Origin: Burkholderiales bacterium
Lineage (GTDB): Bacteria > Pseudomonadota > Gammaproteobacteria > Burkholderiales > Burkholderiaceae_C
Direction of reading: 5' to 3'
Assembly: GCA_017307865.1 (NCBI GenBank)
Contig: JAFKGE010000016.1
Location: forward strand, 1-64,000
Length of the DNA: 64,000 nucleotides
Shown: positions 16,782-50,109 of the stretch, one piece after another
Layout of the letters: every line of letters begins with the position of its first letter
How positions within the stretch are numbered: position 1 is the first letter of the stretch
The notes under the pieces: model-generated
The model's database searches: none
The model's input: only the letters and a program-made list of their open reading frames with translations
What the model was told of the DNA's origin: nothing
Position numbers and translations under genes: made by a program

Positions 16782-17990
16782 TCAAACGCGCTCGAAGATG
16801 CCCGCCGCGCCCTGCCCCATGCCCACGCACATGGTGACCATGCCGTACTTCAGATTGTGGCGCCGCAGGGCGTGAACGACTGTCGCCGACCGGATTGCGC
16901 CGGTGGCGCCCAGCGGGTGGCCCAGGGCAATGGCGCCGCCCATGGGGTTGACCTTGGCGGGATCGAGCTTGAGCGTGTTCATCACCGCCAGCGACTGCGC
17001 GGCAAAGGCCTCGTTCAGCTCGATCCAGCCCATGTCGTCCTGCTTGAGGCCCGCGGCCTTCAGCGCCGCCGGAATGGCCTCGATCGGACCCACGCCCATG
17101 ATCTGCGGCGGTACGCCGCGCGCGGCAAAGGACACGAAGCGCGCCAGCGGCGTCAGGCCGAAGCGCTTGACCGCCGCCTCGCTGGCCAGGATCAATGCGC
17201 CCGCGCCGTCGCTGGTCTGGCTGCTGTTGCCCGCCGTCACGCTGCCGCGCGCGGCAAACACCGTGCGCAGCTTGGCCAGGCCGGCCAGGCTGGTGTCGGG
17301 GCGCGGGCCTTCGTCGATGTCCACCGTGCGCGTCGTCAGCACCGGCTCGCCGGTCTTCAGGTTGGCGCCGCGCGCCGTCACCTCGACCGGCGTCATCTCG
17401 TCCTTGAACTCGCCCGCCGCGATGGCGGCCGTGGCGCGCTGGTTGGACTGCAGCGCAAAGGCGTCCTGCGCCTCGCGCGAGACCTGCCACTGCTGCGCCA
17501 CCTTCTCGGCCGTCAGGCCCATGCCGTAGGCGATGCCGTAGTCATCCACGTTGTCGGTGTCGGCAAAGATGGCCGGCGACAGCGAGGGCGTGTTGCCCAT
17601 CATGGGCACCATGCTCATGCTCTCCACGCCGGCGGCGATCATCACCTCGGCCTCGCCCACGCGAATGCGGTCGGCGGCGATCTGCACGGCGGACAGGCCC
17701 GAGGCGCAAAAACGGTTGACGGTGATGCCGCCCACCGACTTGGGCAGCCCCGCCAGCACCGCGCCGATGCGCGCCACGTTCAGGCCCTGCTGCGCCTCGG
17801 GAATGGCGCAGCCGCAAATCAGGTCCTCGATGGCGGCGGGGTCCAGCCCCGGCGCCTGCCGGAGCGCCGAGCGCAGCACCGTGGCCAGCAGCTCGTCCGG
17901 CCGGGTGTTGCGGAAATAGCCCTTGTGCGACTTGCCGATGGGCGTGCGCGTGGCGGCGACGATGTAGGCGTCCTGGATTTGTCGGGTCAT
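16782..17990 (-). CDS. fadA: Acetyl-CoA C-acyltransferase (3-ketoacyl-CoA thiolase)
   Basis: 402-aa thiolase that cleaves 3-ketoacyl-CoA in the last step of beta-oxidation. The nucleophile is Cys95 in VNRFCASGLS. GGAIALGHPLGATG carries the catalytic His and CVGMGQGAAGIFE the second Cys near the C-terminus; all are intact. The start at 17990 has an excellent AAGGAG 7 nt upstream and was preferred to a TTG two codons earlier. That ribosome site overlaps the tail of the DUF559 gene, whose stop is 2 bp away, so the thiolase start is now tied to the inserted DUF559 gene. Confidence 0.95.
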   Translation of the reverse strand: MTRQIQDAYIVAATRTPIGKSHKGYFRNTRPDELLATVLRSALRQAPGLDPAAIEDLICGCAIPEAQQGLNVARIGAVLAGLPKSVGGITVNRFCASGLSAVQIAADRIRVGEAEVMIAAGVESMSMVPMMGNTPSLSPAIFADTDNVDDYGIAYGMGLTAEKVAQQWQVSREAQDAFALQSNQRATAAIAAGEFKDEMTPVEVTARGANLKTGEPVLTTRTVDIDEGPRPDTSLAGLAKLRTVFAARGSVTAGNSSQTSDGAGALILASEAAVKRFGLTPLARFVSFAARGVPPQIMGVGPIEAIPAALKAAGLKQDDMGWIELNEAFAAQSLAVMNTLKLDPAKVNPMGGAIALGHPLGATGAIRSATVVHALRRHNLKYGMVTMCVGMGQGAAGIFERV

Positions 17991-17992
17991 GG

Positions 17993-18400
17993 TCAAACTC
18001 CTTGGGTTTTCAGCTCCCTCCCCCGCTGGGGGAGGGTTGGGGTGGGGGCGCGCGGCGCTTGCAGTTGCGCCAAGATGACGTGCAGCACTCCATCGAGATT
18101 CGTAAACGGCGCATCGGCCGCGAAGCGCAATACCGCAAAACCACGCGCCTCAAAAAATTCGTTGCGCCTGGCGTCGTACGCCAACTGGTCGGCGTGCTGC
18201 GAACCATCCAGTTCCACGATCAACATAGGCGCCAGACAAGCGAAGTCGGCGATATAGCCGCCCAAGGGATGCTGACGCCGAAACTTGACGCCCAGCTGCT
18301 CGCCGCGCAAGCGCGACCACAGGCGGCGCTCACCGTCGGTCATGGCGCGGCGCAGCGTGCGCGCATTGGCACGTGCCCCTGGCGTCGCTTGGTTCTGCAT
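17993..18400 (-). CDS. DUF559 endonuclease-like protein
   Basis: 135-aa protein of the DUF559 family, related in fold to Vsr-type endonucleases. Visible are the N-terminal RTLRRAMTDGERRLWSRLR, then VKFRRQHPLGGYIADFACL and LIVELDGSQHADQ, which holds the acidic and glutamine residues expected for a PD-(D/E)xK-type site. GAGG lies upstream of the chosen ATG; a longer frame would begin inside a family C repeat. The last dozen or so codons (TPTLPQRGREL) are themselves encoded by family C sequence. It interrupts the beta-oxidation operon between the HAD/ECH fusion and thiolase genes. Function is unproven; see findings. Confidence 0.85.
   Translation of the reverse strand: MQNQATPGARANARTLRRAMTDGERRLWSRLRGEQLGVKFRRQHPLGGYIADFACLAPMLIVELDGSQHADQLAYDARRNEFFEARGFAVLRFAADAPFTNLDGVLHVILAQLQAPRAPTPTLPQRGRELKTQGV
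18011..18048 (+). repeat. Family C repeat, copy 1
   Basis: CTCCCTCCCCCGCTGGGGGA followed by GGGTTGGGGTGGGGG: a strong GC hairpin plus a G-rich tail. It lies within the 3' coding end of the DUF559 gene, where it is translated as a PTPTLPQRG-type peptide on the minus strand. Confidence 0.75.
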
Positions 18401-18420
18401 GTTCACCTCGCCCTGATCTG

Positions 18421-18458
18421 CCCCTTCCCCCTCTGGGGGAAGGTTGGGATGGGGGCCG
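18421..18458 (+). repeat. Family C repeat, copy 2
   Basis: CCCCTTCCCCCTCTGGGGGA followed by AGGTTGGGATGGGGG, the same layout and orientation as copy 1. It lies just upstream of the DUF559 start, so the gene is framed by two same-orientation copies. Confidence 0.75.
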
Positions 18459-18500
18459 CCGAGCACCGCCAATCGCGCTTGTGCTCCTCCCAGCGCTGCT

Positions 18501-18538
18501 GGCCCCCACCCCTACCCTCCCCCAAAGGGGGAGGGGGA
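18501..18538 (-). repeat. Family C repeat, copy 3 (inverted)
   Basis: GCCCCCACCCCTACCCTCCC followed by CCAAAGGGGGAGGGGG is the reverse-complement layout of copy 2, about 40 bp away. The two form a head-to-head pair in the gap between the HAD/ECH fusion gene and the DUF559 gene, like paired palindromic units of REP-type elements. Confidence 0.7.
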
Positions 18539-18570: not shown

Positions 18571-20982
18571 TCAATTGCGCAGCGGCTTGCCCGTGGCCAG
18601 CATTCCCATGATGCGGGCCTGCGTCTTGGGGTGGCCCAGCAGGCCCGTGAAGGCGCGCCGCTCCAGCGTCATCAGGTATTCCTCGCTCACCAGCGTGCCG
18701 GGATCGACGTCGCCGCCGGTCACCACGCCGGCGATCAGGCTGGCGATATCAAAGTCGTGCGCGCTGATGAAGCCGCCGTCGCGCAGGTTGACCAGCTGCC
18801 CCAGGATGGTGGCCTTGCCGTCGCGTCCCGCGACCGGGAACAGGCGCTTCACGGGCGCGCGCCAGCCGGCCTGATGCATGGCCTTGGCTTCGCTCACGGC
18901 CACGTGCAGCAGCTCGTCCTTGTGCGGCACGATCACGTCGCTCCACTGCAGCCAGCCCAGCTGGCGCGACTCGATGGCGCTGGTGCCCACCTTGGCCATG
19001 GCGGCCGCGGTGAAGCCTTCGGTCAGGAAGGGCAGCAGGTCCTTGCCGGTGCTGGCCTGCGCGTTCTCGGCCGCGCGGCGGGCGATGTAGGTGAGACCGC
19101 CGCCGCCAGGCACCAGGCCGACGCCGACCTCGACCAGGCCCATGTAGCTTTCCAGGTGCGCCACGCGGCGCGCGCAGTGCACCGACAGCTCGCAACCGCC
19201 GCCCAGCGCCATGCCGCGGATGGCCGCTACCACCGGCACCTGGGCGTAGCGCACGCGCAGCATCATGTCCTGCAGCTCCTGCTCCATCGAACCGACCAGG
19301 TCGGCGCCGCCGGCCACGTAGCCGGGCAGCATGGACTCCAGGTCGGCGCCGACGGAAAACGGCTCGCTGTCGTGCCAGATGACCAGGCCCTGGAAGTCGC
19401 GCTCGGCGGTGTCCAGCGCCTTCGTGAAGCCCTCGGCCACCTGTGGGCTGATGACGTGCATCTTGGTCTTGAGCGAGGCGATCAGCACCTCGTCGTCCAG
19501 CGTCCACACGCGAAGCGCCTTGTCCTCGAACACGGTCTTGCCCGCTTCTGCAGAACGCGGCCCGCCTTCGCCCAGCAGCAGCTCGGGGAAGATCTGGCGC
19601 TGGTACACCGGCAGCGTGCGGCGCGGCTCGAAGGCGCCGGTGCTCGGGTTCCACGAACCCTTTTCGGTGTGCACGCCGCCGGCCTCGGCCACCGGGCCCT
19701 TGAACACCCAGTCGGGCAGCGGCGCGGTGCAAACCGCCTTGCCGGCGTCGATGTCGGCCTGCACCATCTGGGCCACCTCCAGCCAGCCGGCCTCCTGCCA
19801 CAGCTCGAAGGGACCTTGCTTCATGCCGAAGCCCCAGCGCATGGCCTGGTCGACGTCGCGCGCGGTGTGGGCAATGTCCTGCAGATGCACGGCGGCGTAG
19901 TGAAAGCCGTTGCGCAGGATGGCCCACAGGAACTGCCCTTCGGCGCCGGTCGAGTCGCGCAGCAGCTTCAGGCGCTCGGCGGCGGGGCGCTGCAGCATGC
20001 GGCCGTACACCGCATTGGCCTTGGCGCCGGCCGGCACGTAGCCGCCGCTCTTCGCATCGAAGCGCAGCACGTCGCGCCCGACTTTCTTGAAGTAGCCCGC
20101 CTTGGTCTTTTGCCCCAGGTTGCCCAGCTCGATCAGCTTGGCCAGGTCGGCCGGCGTGCCGAAGGCGGCGTAGAACGGGTCGGTGTCCGCGCTCAGCTTG
20201 TCCTGCTGCGTCTTGATCACGTGGCCCAGCGTGTCCAGGCCCACCACGTCGGCGGTGCGAAAGGTGCCGCTGCTGGCGCGGCCCAGGCGCTTGCCCGTCA
20301 GGTCGTCGACCACGTCGTAGCTCAGGCCGTAGCGCTCCACCTCCTTCATGGTCAGCAGCAGGTTGCCGATGCCGATGCGGTTGGCGATGAAGTTGGGCGT
20401 GTCCTTGGCGCGCACCACGCCCTTGCCCAGGCCGCTGGTGACGAAGGCCTCCAGCTGGTCGAGCACGCCGGGCTCGGTGCTGGGCGTGGCGATCAGCTCC
20501 ACCAGGTGCATGTAGCGCGGCGGGTTGAAGAAGTGGATGCCGCAAAAGCGGTGGCGCAATTGCTCGGGCAGGGCCTGCGACAGTTCGGTGATCGACAGGC
20601 CCGAGGTGTTGGAAGCCAGGATGGCGCTCTTGCCCACCGAGGCGGCGATCTTGTGATACAGGTCGCTCTTCCAGTCCATGCGTTCGGCAATGGCCTCGAT
20701 GATCAGGTCGCAGCCCTTGAGCTTTTTCAGGTCGTCCTCGTAGTTGGCCGGTTCGATCAGCTCGGCGTCCGCCGCCACGCCGATGGGCGAGGGCTTGAGC
20801 TTCTTCAGGTTGGCGATCGCGTTCAGCACGATGCCGTTCTTGGGGCCTTCCTTGGCGGGCAGATCAAACAAGATCACCGGCACCTTCAGGTTGACGAGCT
20901 GGGCGGCGATCTGCGCGCCCATCACGCCGGCGCCGAGCACGGCGACTTTTTTCATGTTGAATCGGGTCATGGTGTTTTCCAT
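18571..20982 (-). CDS. 3-hydroxyacyl-CoA dehydrogenase / enoyl-CoA hydratase fusion (FadN-like order)
   Basis: 803-aa bifunctional beta-oxidation enzyme. The dehydrogenase comes first: VAVLGAGVMGAQIAAQLVN is the NAD-binding motif near residue 15, and IHFFNPPRYMHLVELI holds the catalytic His and Pro. After the C-terminal dehydrogenase domain, a crotonase domain begins near residue 490 with GMALGGGCELSVHCARR (hydratase Glu present) and VEVGVGLVPGGGGLTYI. This order is that of FadN-type proteins and reversed relative to E. coli FadB. It hydrates enoyl-CoA and oxidises 3-hydroxyacyl-CoA for the thiolase downstream. Internal Met starts at 20970 and 20955 are possible; the ribosome site is weak for all. 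Confidence 0.9.
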   Translation of the reverse strand: MENTMTRFNMKKVAVLGAGVMGAQIAAQLVNLKVPVILFDLPAKEGPKNGIVLNAIANLKKLKPSPIGVAADAELIEPANYEDDLKKLKGCDLIIEAIAERMDWKSDLYHKIAASVGKSAILASNTSGLSITELSQALPEQLRHRFCGIHFFNPPRYMHLVELIATPSTEPGVLDQLEAFVTSGLGKGVVRAKDTPNFIANRIGIGNLLLTMKEVERYGLSYDVVDDLTGKRLGRASSGTFRTADVVGLDTLGHVIKTQQDKLSADTDPFYAAFGTPADLAKLIELGNLGQKTKAGYFKKVGRDVLRFDAKSGGYVPAGAKANAVYGRMLQRPAAERLKLLRDSTGAEGQFLWAILRNGFHYAAVHLQDIAHTARDVDQAMRWGFGMKQGPFELWQEAGWLEVAQMVQADIDAGKAVCTAPLPDWVFKGPVAEAGGVHTEKGSWNPSTGAFEPRRTLPVYQRQIFPELLLGEGGPRSAEAGKTVFEDKALRVWTLDDEVLIASLKTKMHVISPQVAEGFTKALDTAERDFQGLVIWHDSEPFSVGADLESMLPGYVAGGADLVGSMEQELQDMMLRVRYAQVPVVAAIRGMALGGGCELSVHCARRVAHLESYMGLVEVGVGLVPGGGGLTYIARRAAENAQASTGKDLLPFLTEGFTAAAMAKVGTSAIESRQLGWLQWSDVIVPHKDELLHVAVSEAKAMHQAGWRAPVKRLFPVAGRDGKATILGQLVNLRDGGFISAHDFDIASLIAGVVTGGDVDPGTLVSEEYLMTLERRAFTGLLGHPKTQARIMGMLATGKPLRN

Positions 20983-21447: not shown

Positions 21448-21470
21448 CCCCTTCCCCCAGCGGGGGAGGG
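21448..21470. repeat. Family C-like short hairpin, copy 4
   Basis: CCCCTTCCCCCAGCGGGGGA plus GGG: the hairpin core of family C without the long G-rich tail. It fills the 35-bp gap between the acyl-CoA dehydrogenase and DUF2147 genes and may supply the latter's ribosome site. Confidence 0.55.
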
Positions 21471-49540: not shown

Positions 49541-50109
49541 CGCATCACCTCGCCCGGCTGGGGCTTGCGCTCGGGGCGCAAGCTGGCGAGCTCGAAGTGG
49601 CGCGGCGCCGTGCCGTCGCTCCAGGCGACGTCGACCACCACCTCGTGCAGGCGCGCGGCCTGGGGCGAGGCGCCGCTGGTGGGCGTGGGGTACGGGTGGC
49701 TTTGCAGCTGCCAGGCGTAGCCGGCGGCCTCGCCGGTCTCGCTCAGGCCCGCCGCGGGCACGGTCTGGTGCGCGGCCAGCAGGCCTTGGGCCAGCAGCAT
49801 GGCGCGCTCGTGCTGGTCGAGGTTGCCGATCTGGCGCGCGTTGTTGCCGCTGACGCGGTAGAGCATGCCCAGCGCCATGGCGGCGATGGCGAAGGCGACC
49901 AGGATTTCGAGCAGGGAGAAGCCGCGCTGCGTCGATGGGTGACGCCGTCGGCCCCTCACCCCCACCTGCACCCCATGAAGCAAAGCTTCACGGGGGCCCC
50001 GCGCCCTCTCCCCAGAGGGGCGAGGGAGCGAAACCCCTGAGCCGCGCGGGCGAACGACTCCCTCTCCCGCTGGCGGGAGAGGGTTGGGGTGAGGGTGCAC
50101 CCGGCTCAT
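49537..50109 (-). CDS. gspI: Type II secretion minor pseudopilin GspI with a repeat-built N-terminus
   Basis: 190 aa from the ATG that overlaps the gspH stop by 4 bp. The prepilin site is TQRG/FSLLEILVAFAIAAMALG, with Glu at +5; the mature part (YRVSGNNARQIGNLDQHERAMLLAQGLLAAHQ) is normal. But about 50 of the 63 residues before the cleavage site are encoded by a family C repeat (HPHPNPLPPAGEG and onward). Type IV prepilin leaders are usually 5-25 residues. A GTG at 49971 would give a 17-residue leader of normal size, but without the tight coupling to gspH. Which start is used is unknown; either way the repeat sits in the 5' end of the gene. Confidence 0.85.
   Translation of the reverse strand: MSRVHPHPNPLPPAGEGVVRPRGSGVSLPRPSGERARGPREALLHGVQVGVRGRRRHPSTQRGFSLLEILVAFAIAAMALGMLYRVSGNNARQIGNLDQHERAMLLAQGLLAAHQTVPAAGLSETGEAAGYAWQLQSHPYPTPTSGASPQAARLHEVVVDVAWSDGTAPRHFELASLRPERKPQPGEVMR
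49949..50103. repeat. Family C repeat, compound copy 5, inside the gspI 5' end
   Basis: About 150 bp. Outer arms CCCCTCACCCCC and GGTTGGGGTGAGGG are inverted; inside are CCTCTCCCCAGAGGGGCGAG and CCCTCTCCCGCTGGCGGGAG hairpins. It resembles two back-to-back palindromic units. It is open in the gspI frame across its full length and lies between the gspI start codon and the prepilin leader. Confidence 0.8.

Follow-up and report, generated by a model that had tools for sequence, protein, structure and literature searches.

A DUF559 (YcjD-family) nuclease gene that lies among short repeats readable as intrastrand triplexes was found in the window analyzed here, a 64,000-nt stretch of DNA from a Burkholderiales bacterium (GenBank assembly GCA_017307865.1, contig JAFKGE010000016.1, positions 1 to 64,000), and the same arrangement, with the gene between or beside such units, recurs chiefly among Pseudomonadota, with some loci in other phyla. 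That DUF559/YcjD is associated with the triplex repeats is secure; cleavage and mobilization of the repeats by the enzyme are inferred. Our reading, to which we assign a probability of roughly two in three, is that a repeat system resembling REPIN/RAYT, but sharing no parts with it, has DUF559 as its resident nuclease. As far as searches of an open-access library show, the link is unreported, in agreement with the suspicion voiced in a preliminary description of this DNA that it might be undescribed.

The window gene (17993 to 18400, minus strand; translation 17996-18400) sits in the fadB-fadA junction and matches Pfam PF04480 with E=2e-35. We preferred the ATG at 18400, which gives a protein of 135 aa, over the TTG at 18472 of the ORF list, because the first 24 residues of the TTG reading are largely repeat sequence. 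The DUF559 domain spans 18059 to 18373 (minus strand), and the E, Q, D, ExD and H of its nuclease site are nearly invariant in the family. The gene splits a beta-oxidation pair, as had been described, with the fadA thiolase downstream (16782 to 17990, minus strand) and a fadB-like 3-hydroxyacyl-CoA dehydrogenase/enoyl-CoA hydratase upstream (18571 to 20982, minus strand). The same description had the 3′ coding end made of repeat sequence and the fadA ribosome site carried by the inserted gene, and both statements proved correct: repeat DNA makes up the last ~20 codons, including the final codons APTPTLPQRGREL, and the AAGGAG upstream of fadA falls within the end of the DUF559 ORF.

Three repeat units were located at this locus, two in the same orientation and one inverted, which is the layout first proposed. 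The left unit (18016 to 18048, plus strand) is composed of a hairpin at 18016-18036 and a third-strand tail at 18039-18048 that points toward the gene; the right unit (18503 to 18535, minus strand) is inverted with respect to it, and the two form an outer pair that brackets the gene. An extra unit with the palindrome variant CCTTCCCCC (18423 to 18456, plus strand) lies upstream of the ATG at 18400 and makes, together with 18503-18535, a REPIN-like inverted pair (18423 to 18535) that folds in silico as a single long hairpin, the DNA folding energy of the stretch 18420-18538 being -42.2 kcal/mol (z -5.3). The individual units of the window did not fold clearly better than their shuffles, so that the structural signal rests on the pair and on the third strand.

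In the repeat unit a pyrimidine/purine hairpin is followed by a purine-rich tail, and the tail can be read as a third strand for the purine arm of the hairpin (G on G, A or T on A). This identifies the units as BoxC/PIT/TM repeats, a motif in which a hairpin and a third purine strand make a class II triplex, as set out in the accessible part of PMC4666352. A unit of a sister type at 50060 to 50095 (plus strand) fits exactly the TM-ECO (BoxC) triplex consensus published there; those at 18016 and 18503 conform to it once a single position is relaxed, and no fit was obtained in 100 shuffles. Triplex formation in vitro has been reported for the E. coli motif (PMC4666352, available in part); for the sequences analyzed here it is inferred. 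A third strand accompanied 426 of the 878 hairpin readings, each palindrome being readable on both strands, whereas shuffling leads one to expect 147, and the third-strand signal is thus partly due to composition, since shuffled DNA still yields those 147 readings. Rhizobial units presumably resemble RIME.

Allowing up to 3 mismatches, the palindrome occurs five times in the window against 0.13 expected from shuffles; of these, the one at 50006 is a sister-type copy, and a solo palindrome at 21450 to 21470 (plus strand) has 1 mismatch and no clear tail. The repeat type of the DUF559 locus, called family C in the preliminary description, was said there to have invaded gspI as well, and this claim could not be maintained: the copy near 50060 is a sister-type one, CCCTCTCCC, placed upstream of where a pilin-like ORF has its N-methylation signal (residues 215-239 of 345), so that gspI does not look interrupted. 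The sister-type units at 49952-50096, upstream of the N-methylation motif of this ORF, resemble an inverted pair and not a gene invasion. The host genome (3.9 Mb, 91 contigs) contains one DUF559 match; two palindrome patterns occur in it 10 and 3 times, and the sister type 14 times. Its fadB-fadA junction measures ~580 bp. Of 20 relatives without DUF559, 15 have 29-187 bp separating the fadB stop codon from the thiolase motif, 2 have ~550 bp and 3 were left unresolved; one of the 15 short-junction genomes (G044) has a solo palindrome at this site.

PF04480 matches occurred in 50 of the 150 genomes of the host family, and in 19 the match was full-length (E below 1e-30). G/C palindromes flank the gene on both sides in all 19 full-length loci (the right copy of L019 is imperfect), their sequence varies from genome to genome, and 14 of these loci occupy the fadB-fadA site, the rest being sited elsewhere. 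No unit was found within 400 bp of any of the 11 divergent PF04480 matches (L020-L030, E 3e-13 to 1.7e-7); loci were therefore chosen from full-length matches. The resulting set of 99 loci comprises the 19 family genomes, 70 additional genomes of the phylum with their best match each, and 10 extra paralogs, of which G172 contributes 6 and G318 contributes 4; among the 77 phylum genomes with DUF559, 3 were in the family set and 4 had no listed place. With 76 of 80 named loci it makes up 175 loci. One peptide pattern gave 572 confirmed places, of which the best 80 became the named loci; these consequently lean to close relatives. For flanks shorter than 150 bp, 4 of the 80 were dropped, or 5 of the 80 where 200 bp were required, and short length likewise removed 3 of the 30 Vsr loci and 1 of the 12 Y1_Tnp loci retrieved. 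Repeat counts, E. coli row values and family strata were entered by hand from tables.

Each locus was scored for similarity between its left 250 bp and its reverse-complemented right 250 bp, with a score of 16 as threshold and with random windows of the same shape from the same loci as control. Inverted flank repeats were present at 74 of the 99 loci versus 4 of 1485 random windows, and at 52 of the 76 named loci (from the best 80 of 572) versus 5 of 1140, the named positives including Geobacter, Desulfobacterales, SAR202 Chloroflexi and Xanthomonas. Taken together, 126 of 175 DUF559 loci (best 80 of 572 included) scored positive as compared with 5 of 814 neighboring ORFs and 1 of 484 short ORFs. 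When the triplex motif itself was searched for as a hairpin with a third strand, without fixing its sequence, it was found within 300 bp at 165 of the 175 loci and on both sides at 120, whereas random windows of the same loci gave 61 and 3 of 1050, respectively; 10 of the 175 loci lacked the motif and 55 lacked it on one or both sides (all these counts again include the best 80 of 572 named places). The orientation of the units is regular as well: in 48 of the 50 loci with exactly one unit per side, the units are inverted with their tails inward.

The same proximity was not a property of related or competing genes. A unit lay within 400 bp in 94 of the 99 DUF559 loci and in 70 of 75 named loci (from the best 80 of 572), but in only 1 of 27 Vsr loci and in none of 11 loci chosen as Y1_Tnp best matches; as the latter were mostly IS200-type, we added 21 RAYT-like Y1_Tnp genes, 16 of them from repeat-rich genomes, and none had a unit within 600 bp. 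The expectation that DUF559 genes elsewhere would be associated with the repeats was therefore fulfilled, with neighboring ORFs, random windows, Vsr genes and Y1 transposases negative. RAYT was rejected as a candidate driver; in the host, no unit lies within 600 bp of the Y1_Tnp gene, whose 4-kb flanks are likewise free of such palindromes.

Four extra loci were inspected, in which the tails pointed outward at the Deinococcus and Synechocystis plasmid loci and no motif was seen at the Picosynechococcus locus. On plasmids of two Deinococcus species (L367 and L368), DUF559 lies within the same hpa catabolic operon but at a different point in each, with tails outward. Of 72,556 plasmid and 50,697 phage records, tblastn matched 44 and 3, respectively, which makes a mainly plasmid- or phage-borne origin of the gene unlikely.

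Repeat number follows the presence of the gene. Among 299 genomes of the phylum, at least 5 copies of one common palindrome were counted in 54 of 77 genomes with DUF559 and in 14 of 222 without it (median copies 14 and 0, respectively), and when labels were permuted within 16 families (178 genomes) the observed statistic was reached in 0 of 20000 permutations. The congeners G237, with DUF559, and G241, without it, have 142 and 0 copies, respectively. The excess is not uniform, as the large family f32 had near-equal means (2.2 and 2.0), f10 and f17 showed no excess, f59 (two genomes) was reversed, and 8 of the 77 DUF559 genomes had zero copies of the one palindrome counted. In the host family, full-length DUF559 occurs in 15 of 21 repeat-rich genomes versus 4 of 129 others (p=1e-12). 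An abundance of repeats in genomes without the gene had been named at the outset as an outcome that would refute the link; such genomes do exist (14 of 222 in the phylum, and 6 of 21 repeat-rich family genomes without the full-length gene), but in the phylum they are a minority when set against the 54 of 77 with it. One genome of the window genus (G015) has 35 repeats by three patterns, no DUF559 match and 20 Y1_Tnp matches, with a fadB-fadA junction of 41 bp without repeats; its repeats are possibly a population left after gene loss. Two other genomes, G287 and G308 (87 and 69 percent complete), contain more than 100 palindrome copies and no DUF559 match, for which gene loss, missing contigs or another partner could each account.

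The repeats not only accompany the protein but tend to match it. In 13 of the 14 family genomes in which the flank type is one of the two counted, it is also the majority type of the genome, the sole exception being the host itself (13 versus 14 copies). Over 74 paired-flank loci, protein similarity correlates with repeat similarity (Mantel r=0.18, p=0.004), an effect that is strong for closely related proteins, mean repeat similarity being 0.73 at protein similarity above 0.7 as against 0.30 below 0.3. As an association, the link between protein and repeat inferred from the window alone holds in general; it is not peculiar to family C, as the repeat sequence changes between genomes along with the protein. 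Among the seven paralogs of G172, the closest proteins (L163 and L165, similarity 0.61) share their repeat (0.87), L167 and L168 combine a protein similarity of 0.54 with different repeats (0.26), and L138 and L164 have fairly similar repeats (0.67) and less similar proteins (0.39). For the 14 loci at fadB-fadA, DUF559 distances correlate with those of FadA (r=0.65, p=2e-4), and this agreement indicates that the gene is inherited vertically there while the repeat type changes.

YcjD of E. coli is itself a DUF559 protein, encoded between sapF and fabI. In a K-12 derivative (L334:2287-2870), a BoxC triplex repeat lies downstream of ycjD, on its right side only. Of 5426 complete E. coli genomes, 3364 contained the ycjD region over at least 80 percent of the query, and we sampled 59 chromosomes at even steps down the ranking, after a plasmid record (H125) had been dropped from 60 rows. 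BoxC-like places had a median of 22 (14-32) in strains with ycjD (n=37) versus 6 (2-23) in strains without it (n=22; p=4e-9), some of the latter having 10-23. This correlation is confounded, because ycjD occurs mainly in phylogroups A, B1 and C, according to the available portion of PMC12817139, which names ST69 and ST182 as carriers of ycjD that belong to none of these three. No clean empty sapF-fabI site was seen in the two ycjD-less strains read, which have efflux genes there instead (PMC12817139, same limitation).

In order to compare states of a single site, a 1.7-kb stretch around the DUF559 gene of G318 was searched in 41 congeners, and 19 homologous stretches, that of G318 included, were read, the states being judged by eye from the alignment. 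The gene lies between two inverted units in G318, G445, G452 and G461 (right unit cut in G461), and at the homologous intergenic site a repeat pair without the gene is found in G460 and G456; a gene-less pair also occurs in L195. In G463, G451, G450 and G467 a pair adjoins the gene-bearing unit, G448, G474 and G454 have a small hairpin alone, and G476 has a different insert and a pair. Another hairpin family occupies the site as pairs in G444, G471 and G472 and singly in G475 and G470. Among the matches listed, the terminal unit was found again elsewhere in these genomes at 92-100 percent identity. Gene-bearing, pair-alone and small-hairpin states therefore coexist at one site; the data do not give the direction of change, and no target-site duplication could be defined from the 19 stretches, whose ends are too variable. 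The second hairpin family, ATCTCCCCC...GGGGGAGAT (G444:C1:3319855-3321260, L102; genus g223), occurs at this site in inverted pairs of its own and is likewise found on the flanks of DUF559 genes.

The protein belongs to a known nuclease fold. The AlphaFold model of the window protein (pLDDT 77, pTM 0.70) retrieved with Foldseek the family member 3hrl (E 6e-8) and then the homing endonuclease I-Bth0305I (E 1.5e-3), Vsr being a weak structural match (rank 9, E 0.31). A sequence profile gave the same two hits (3hrl, E 4e-38; I-Bth0305I, E 5e-5), and all others, with E 0.1 or more, were taken as chance. Over the 99 loci the active-site residues are conserved as E in 99, D in 99, E in 98, D in 99 and H in 98. 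The protein thus has the PD-(D/E)XK-like core of an EDxHD/Vsr-fold nuclease with conserved E, D, ExD and H; the YcjD family had been placed in the PD-(D/E)XK superfamily by 2005 (PMC1189080, seen in part).

On these grounds, we propose the following model. Two inverted units would constitute a miniature element, and two such units enclosing the nuclease gene a gene-bearing element. The enzyme would recognize the folded unit, either as a hairpin or triplex in single-stranded DNA or as the cruciform of a pair, and nick it; nicking would allow pairs to be copied in trans into new intergenic sites, the gene itself seldom moving, and loss of the gene would leave a decaying repeat population. The idea, already put forward from the window, of a relation like that of REP and RAYT but with a different enzyme is supported by the association, and the cutting and moving of repeats remains an inference: neither movement nor cleavage nor target-site duplication was observed in this analysis. 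We also incline to the broader view that DUF559/YcjD and its triplex repeats are a separate class of replicating bacterial DNA, in which a Vsr/EDxHD-fold enzyme recognizing the triplex or hairpin would spread inverted pairs in trans, in Pseudomonadota and some other phyla and with ycjD/BoxC of E. coli K-12 included.

The structural hit to I-Bth0305I, the closest fold beyond DUF559's own family, raises the alternative that survives best, namely that the gene is a homing-type parasite which cuts repeat pairs and is copied into the cut during repair, the repeats serving as homology arms but spreading by other means. I-Bth0305I dimerizes on a target of nearly 60 bp (PMC3943268, in the part available), and the position of the gene between two units, together with the pairs that adjoin the gene-bearing unit in four of the G318 congeners, would suit such a parasite. 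We nevertheless consider it improbable: between 1 and 8 gene copies were found per genome while the palindrome reaches hundreds, the gene is vertically inherited at fadB-fadA, and repeat number tracks its presence, which a pure parasite does not need.

Rather doubtful, too, is a caretaker role, in which the enzyme would resolve or repair folded repeats or their mismatches and be kept where repeats are common, without spreading them. DUF559 has the Vsr/PD-(D/E)XK fold and is under constraint (mean uncorrected pN/pS 0.42 over 91 pairs, with synonymous sites near saturation). Moreover, Caulobacter VsrA, a DUF559 protein, acts in a DNA-damage response tied to cytosine methylation, as far as the accessible text of PMC12907096 goes, and this tie counts against DUF559 being a repeat nuclease. 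Repair of this kind leaves unexplained why units of matching type surround the gene; true Vsr genes do not adjoin the repeats (the 1 of 27 above), and a regex search up to 3-4 kb around 179 DUF559 loci (best 80 of 572 included) found no C5-methyltransferase motif, unlinked partners not being excluded.

The notion that DUF559 is a mere bystander, a dispensable gene around which repeats gather while a RAYT or another transposase moves them, has little left to recommend it beyond the frequency of Y1_Tnp genes in the family, which occur in 112 of 150 genomes, the host included with one. These genes are not associated with repeat richness in the host family (17 of 21 repeat-rich genomes versus 95 of 129 others), and a Y1_Tnp match is absent from 7 of the 19 DUF559 genomes; in three of these seven, 8-18 palindromes of the counted type are present. 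The 21 RAYT-like and 11 other Y1_Tnp genes lacked units within 600 and 400 bp, respectively (other transposase families were outside the scan), and of the neighboring ORFs only 5 of 814 are flanked. Finally, hairpins at both ends of a small gene might be ordinary terminators or protective hairpins of its transcript, but this can practically be dismissed, as the units are genome-wide repeats with a third strand, pairs occur without the gene, and PIT elements had no terminator or promoter activity in earlier work, according to the available part of PMC4666352.

If DUF559 is, as we propose, the resident nuclease of these repeats, a repeat class known since the 1990s without a mobilizer would gain one, and a widespread domain labeled as of unknown function would gain a function. 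REP/RAYT would also have a counterpart, a second repeat-nuclease system built independently, whose recognition signal could be the triplex fold, and the question would be open to direct test in E. coli K-12.

RAYTs are single-copy genes, vertically inherited and matched to the type of their repeats. REP and REPIN sequences are short palindromic intergenic repeats, often in inverted pairs, that bracket a nuclease gene (PMC3116915 and PMC3733652, both in part), and the DUF559 system has the short palindromes, the inverted pairs and the bracketed nuclease gene in common with them. The enzyme, however, is of the PD-(D/E)XK/EDxHD/Vsr fold, whereas RAYT is a HUH/Y1 tyrosine transposase. The DUF559 unit has a third-strand tail where REP repeats carry a GTAG or CGTC tag beside the palindrome (PMC3733652, in part), a tag that was not noticed in the units read, without a systematic scan. 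The Y1_Tnp match is missing in the seven DUF559 genomes mentioned above. The criterion of an associated Y1/HUH gene fails, since the gene is PF04480 and neither the 21 RAYT-like nor the 11 other Y1_Tnp genes are flanked by a unit. To REPINs the likeness is one of organization only: inverted doublets fold as one hairpin, and gene-less pairs such as those of L195 and G460 occur, their intergenic location not having been counted.

With BoxC/PIT/TM elements the repeat itself is shared, a hairpin with a third purine strand. The authors of the 2015 study stated, in the part of PMC4666352 available, that activities giving mobility had never been found near these motifs, and a DUF559 gene in their vicinity would not have been taken for such an activity in that work; here, in contrast, DUF559/YcjD is proposed as the partner, and the sequences of the units associated with it vary by genome. 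The EDxHD homing endonucleases, represented by I-Bth0305I, offer the nearest solved fold outside the family and a similar catalytic E, D and H by our own reading of the motif, but for DUF559 no intron or intein host was noticed, and its copies stay low while the repeats multiply. Vsr (PF03852) and VsrA share the fold, VsrA being a DUF559 protein; Vsr genes differ in seldom standing beside triplex repeats, and DUF559 loci in lacking the C5-methyltransferase motif. As in MITEs and their autonomous transposons, gene-bearing and gene-less forms with common ends exist at one site, although neither a transposase of known kind nor a target-site duplication was seen. By membership, the DUF559 system is therefore neither REP/RAYT nor a shown homing element, and by function its nearest relative is REPIN/RAYT, the mobilizing step being inferred.
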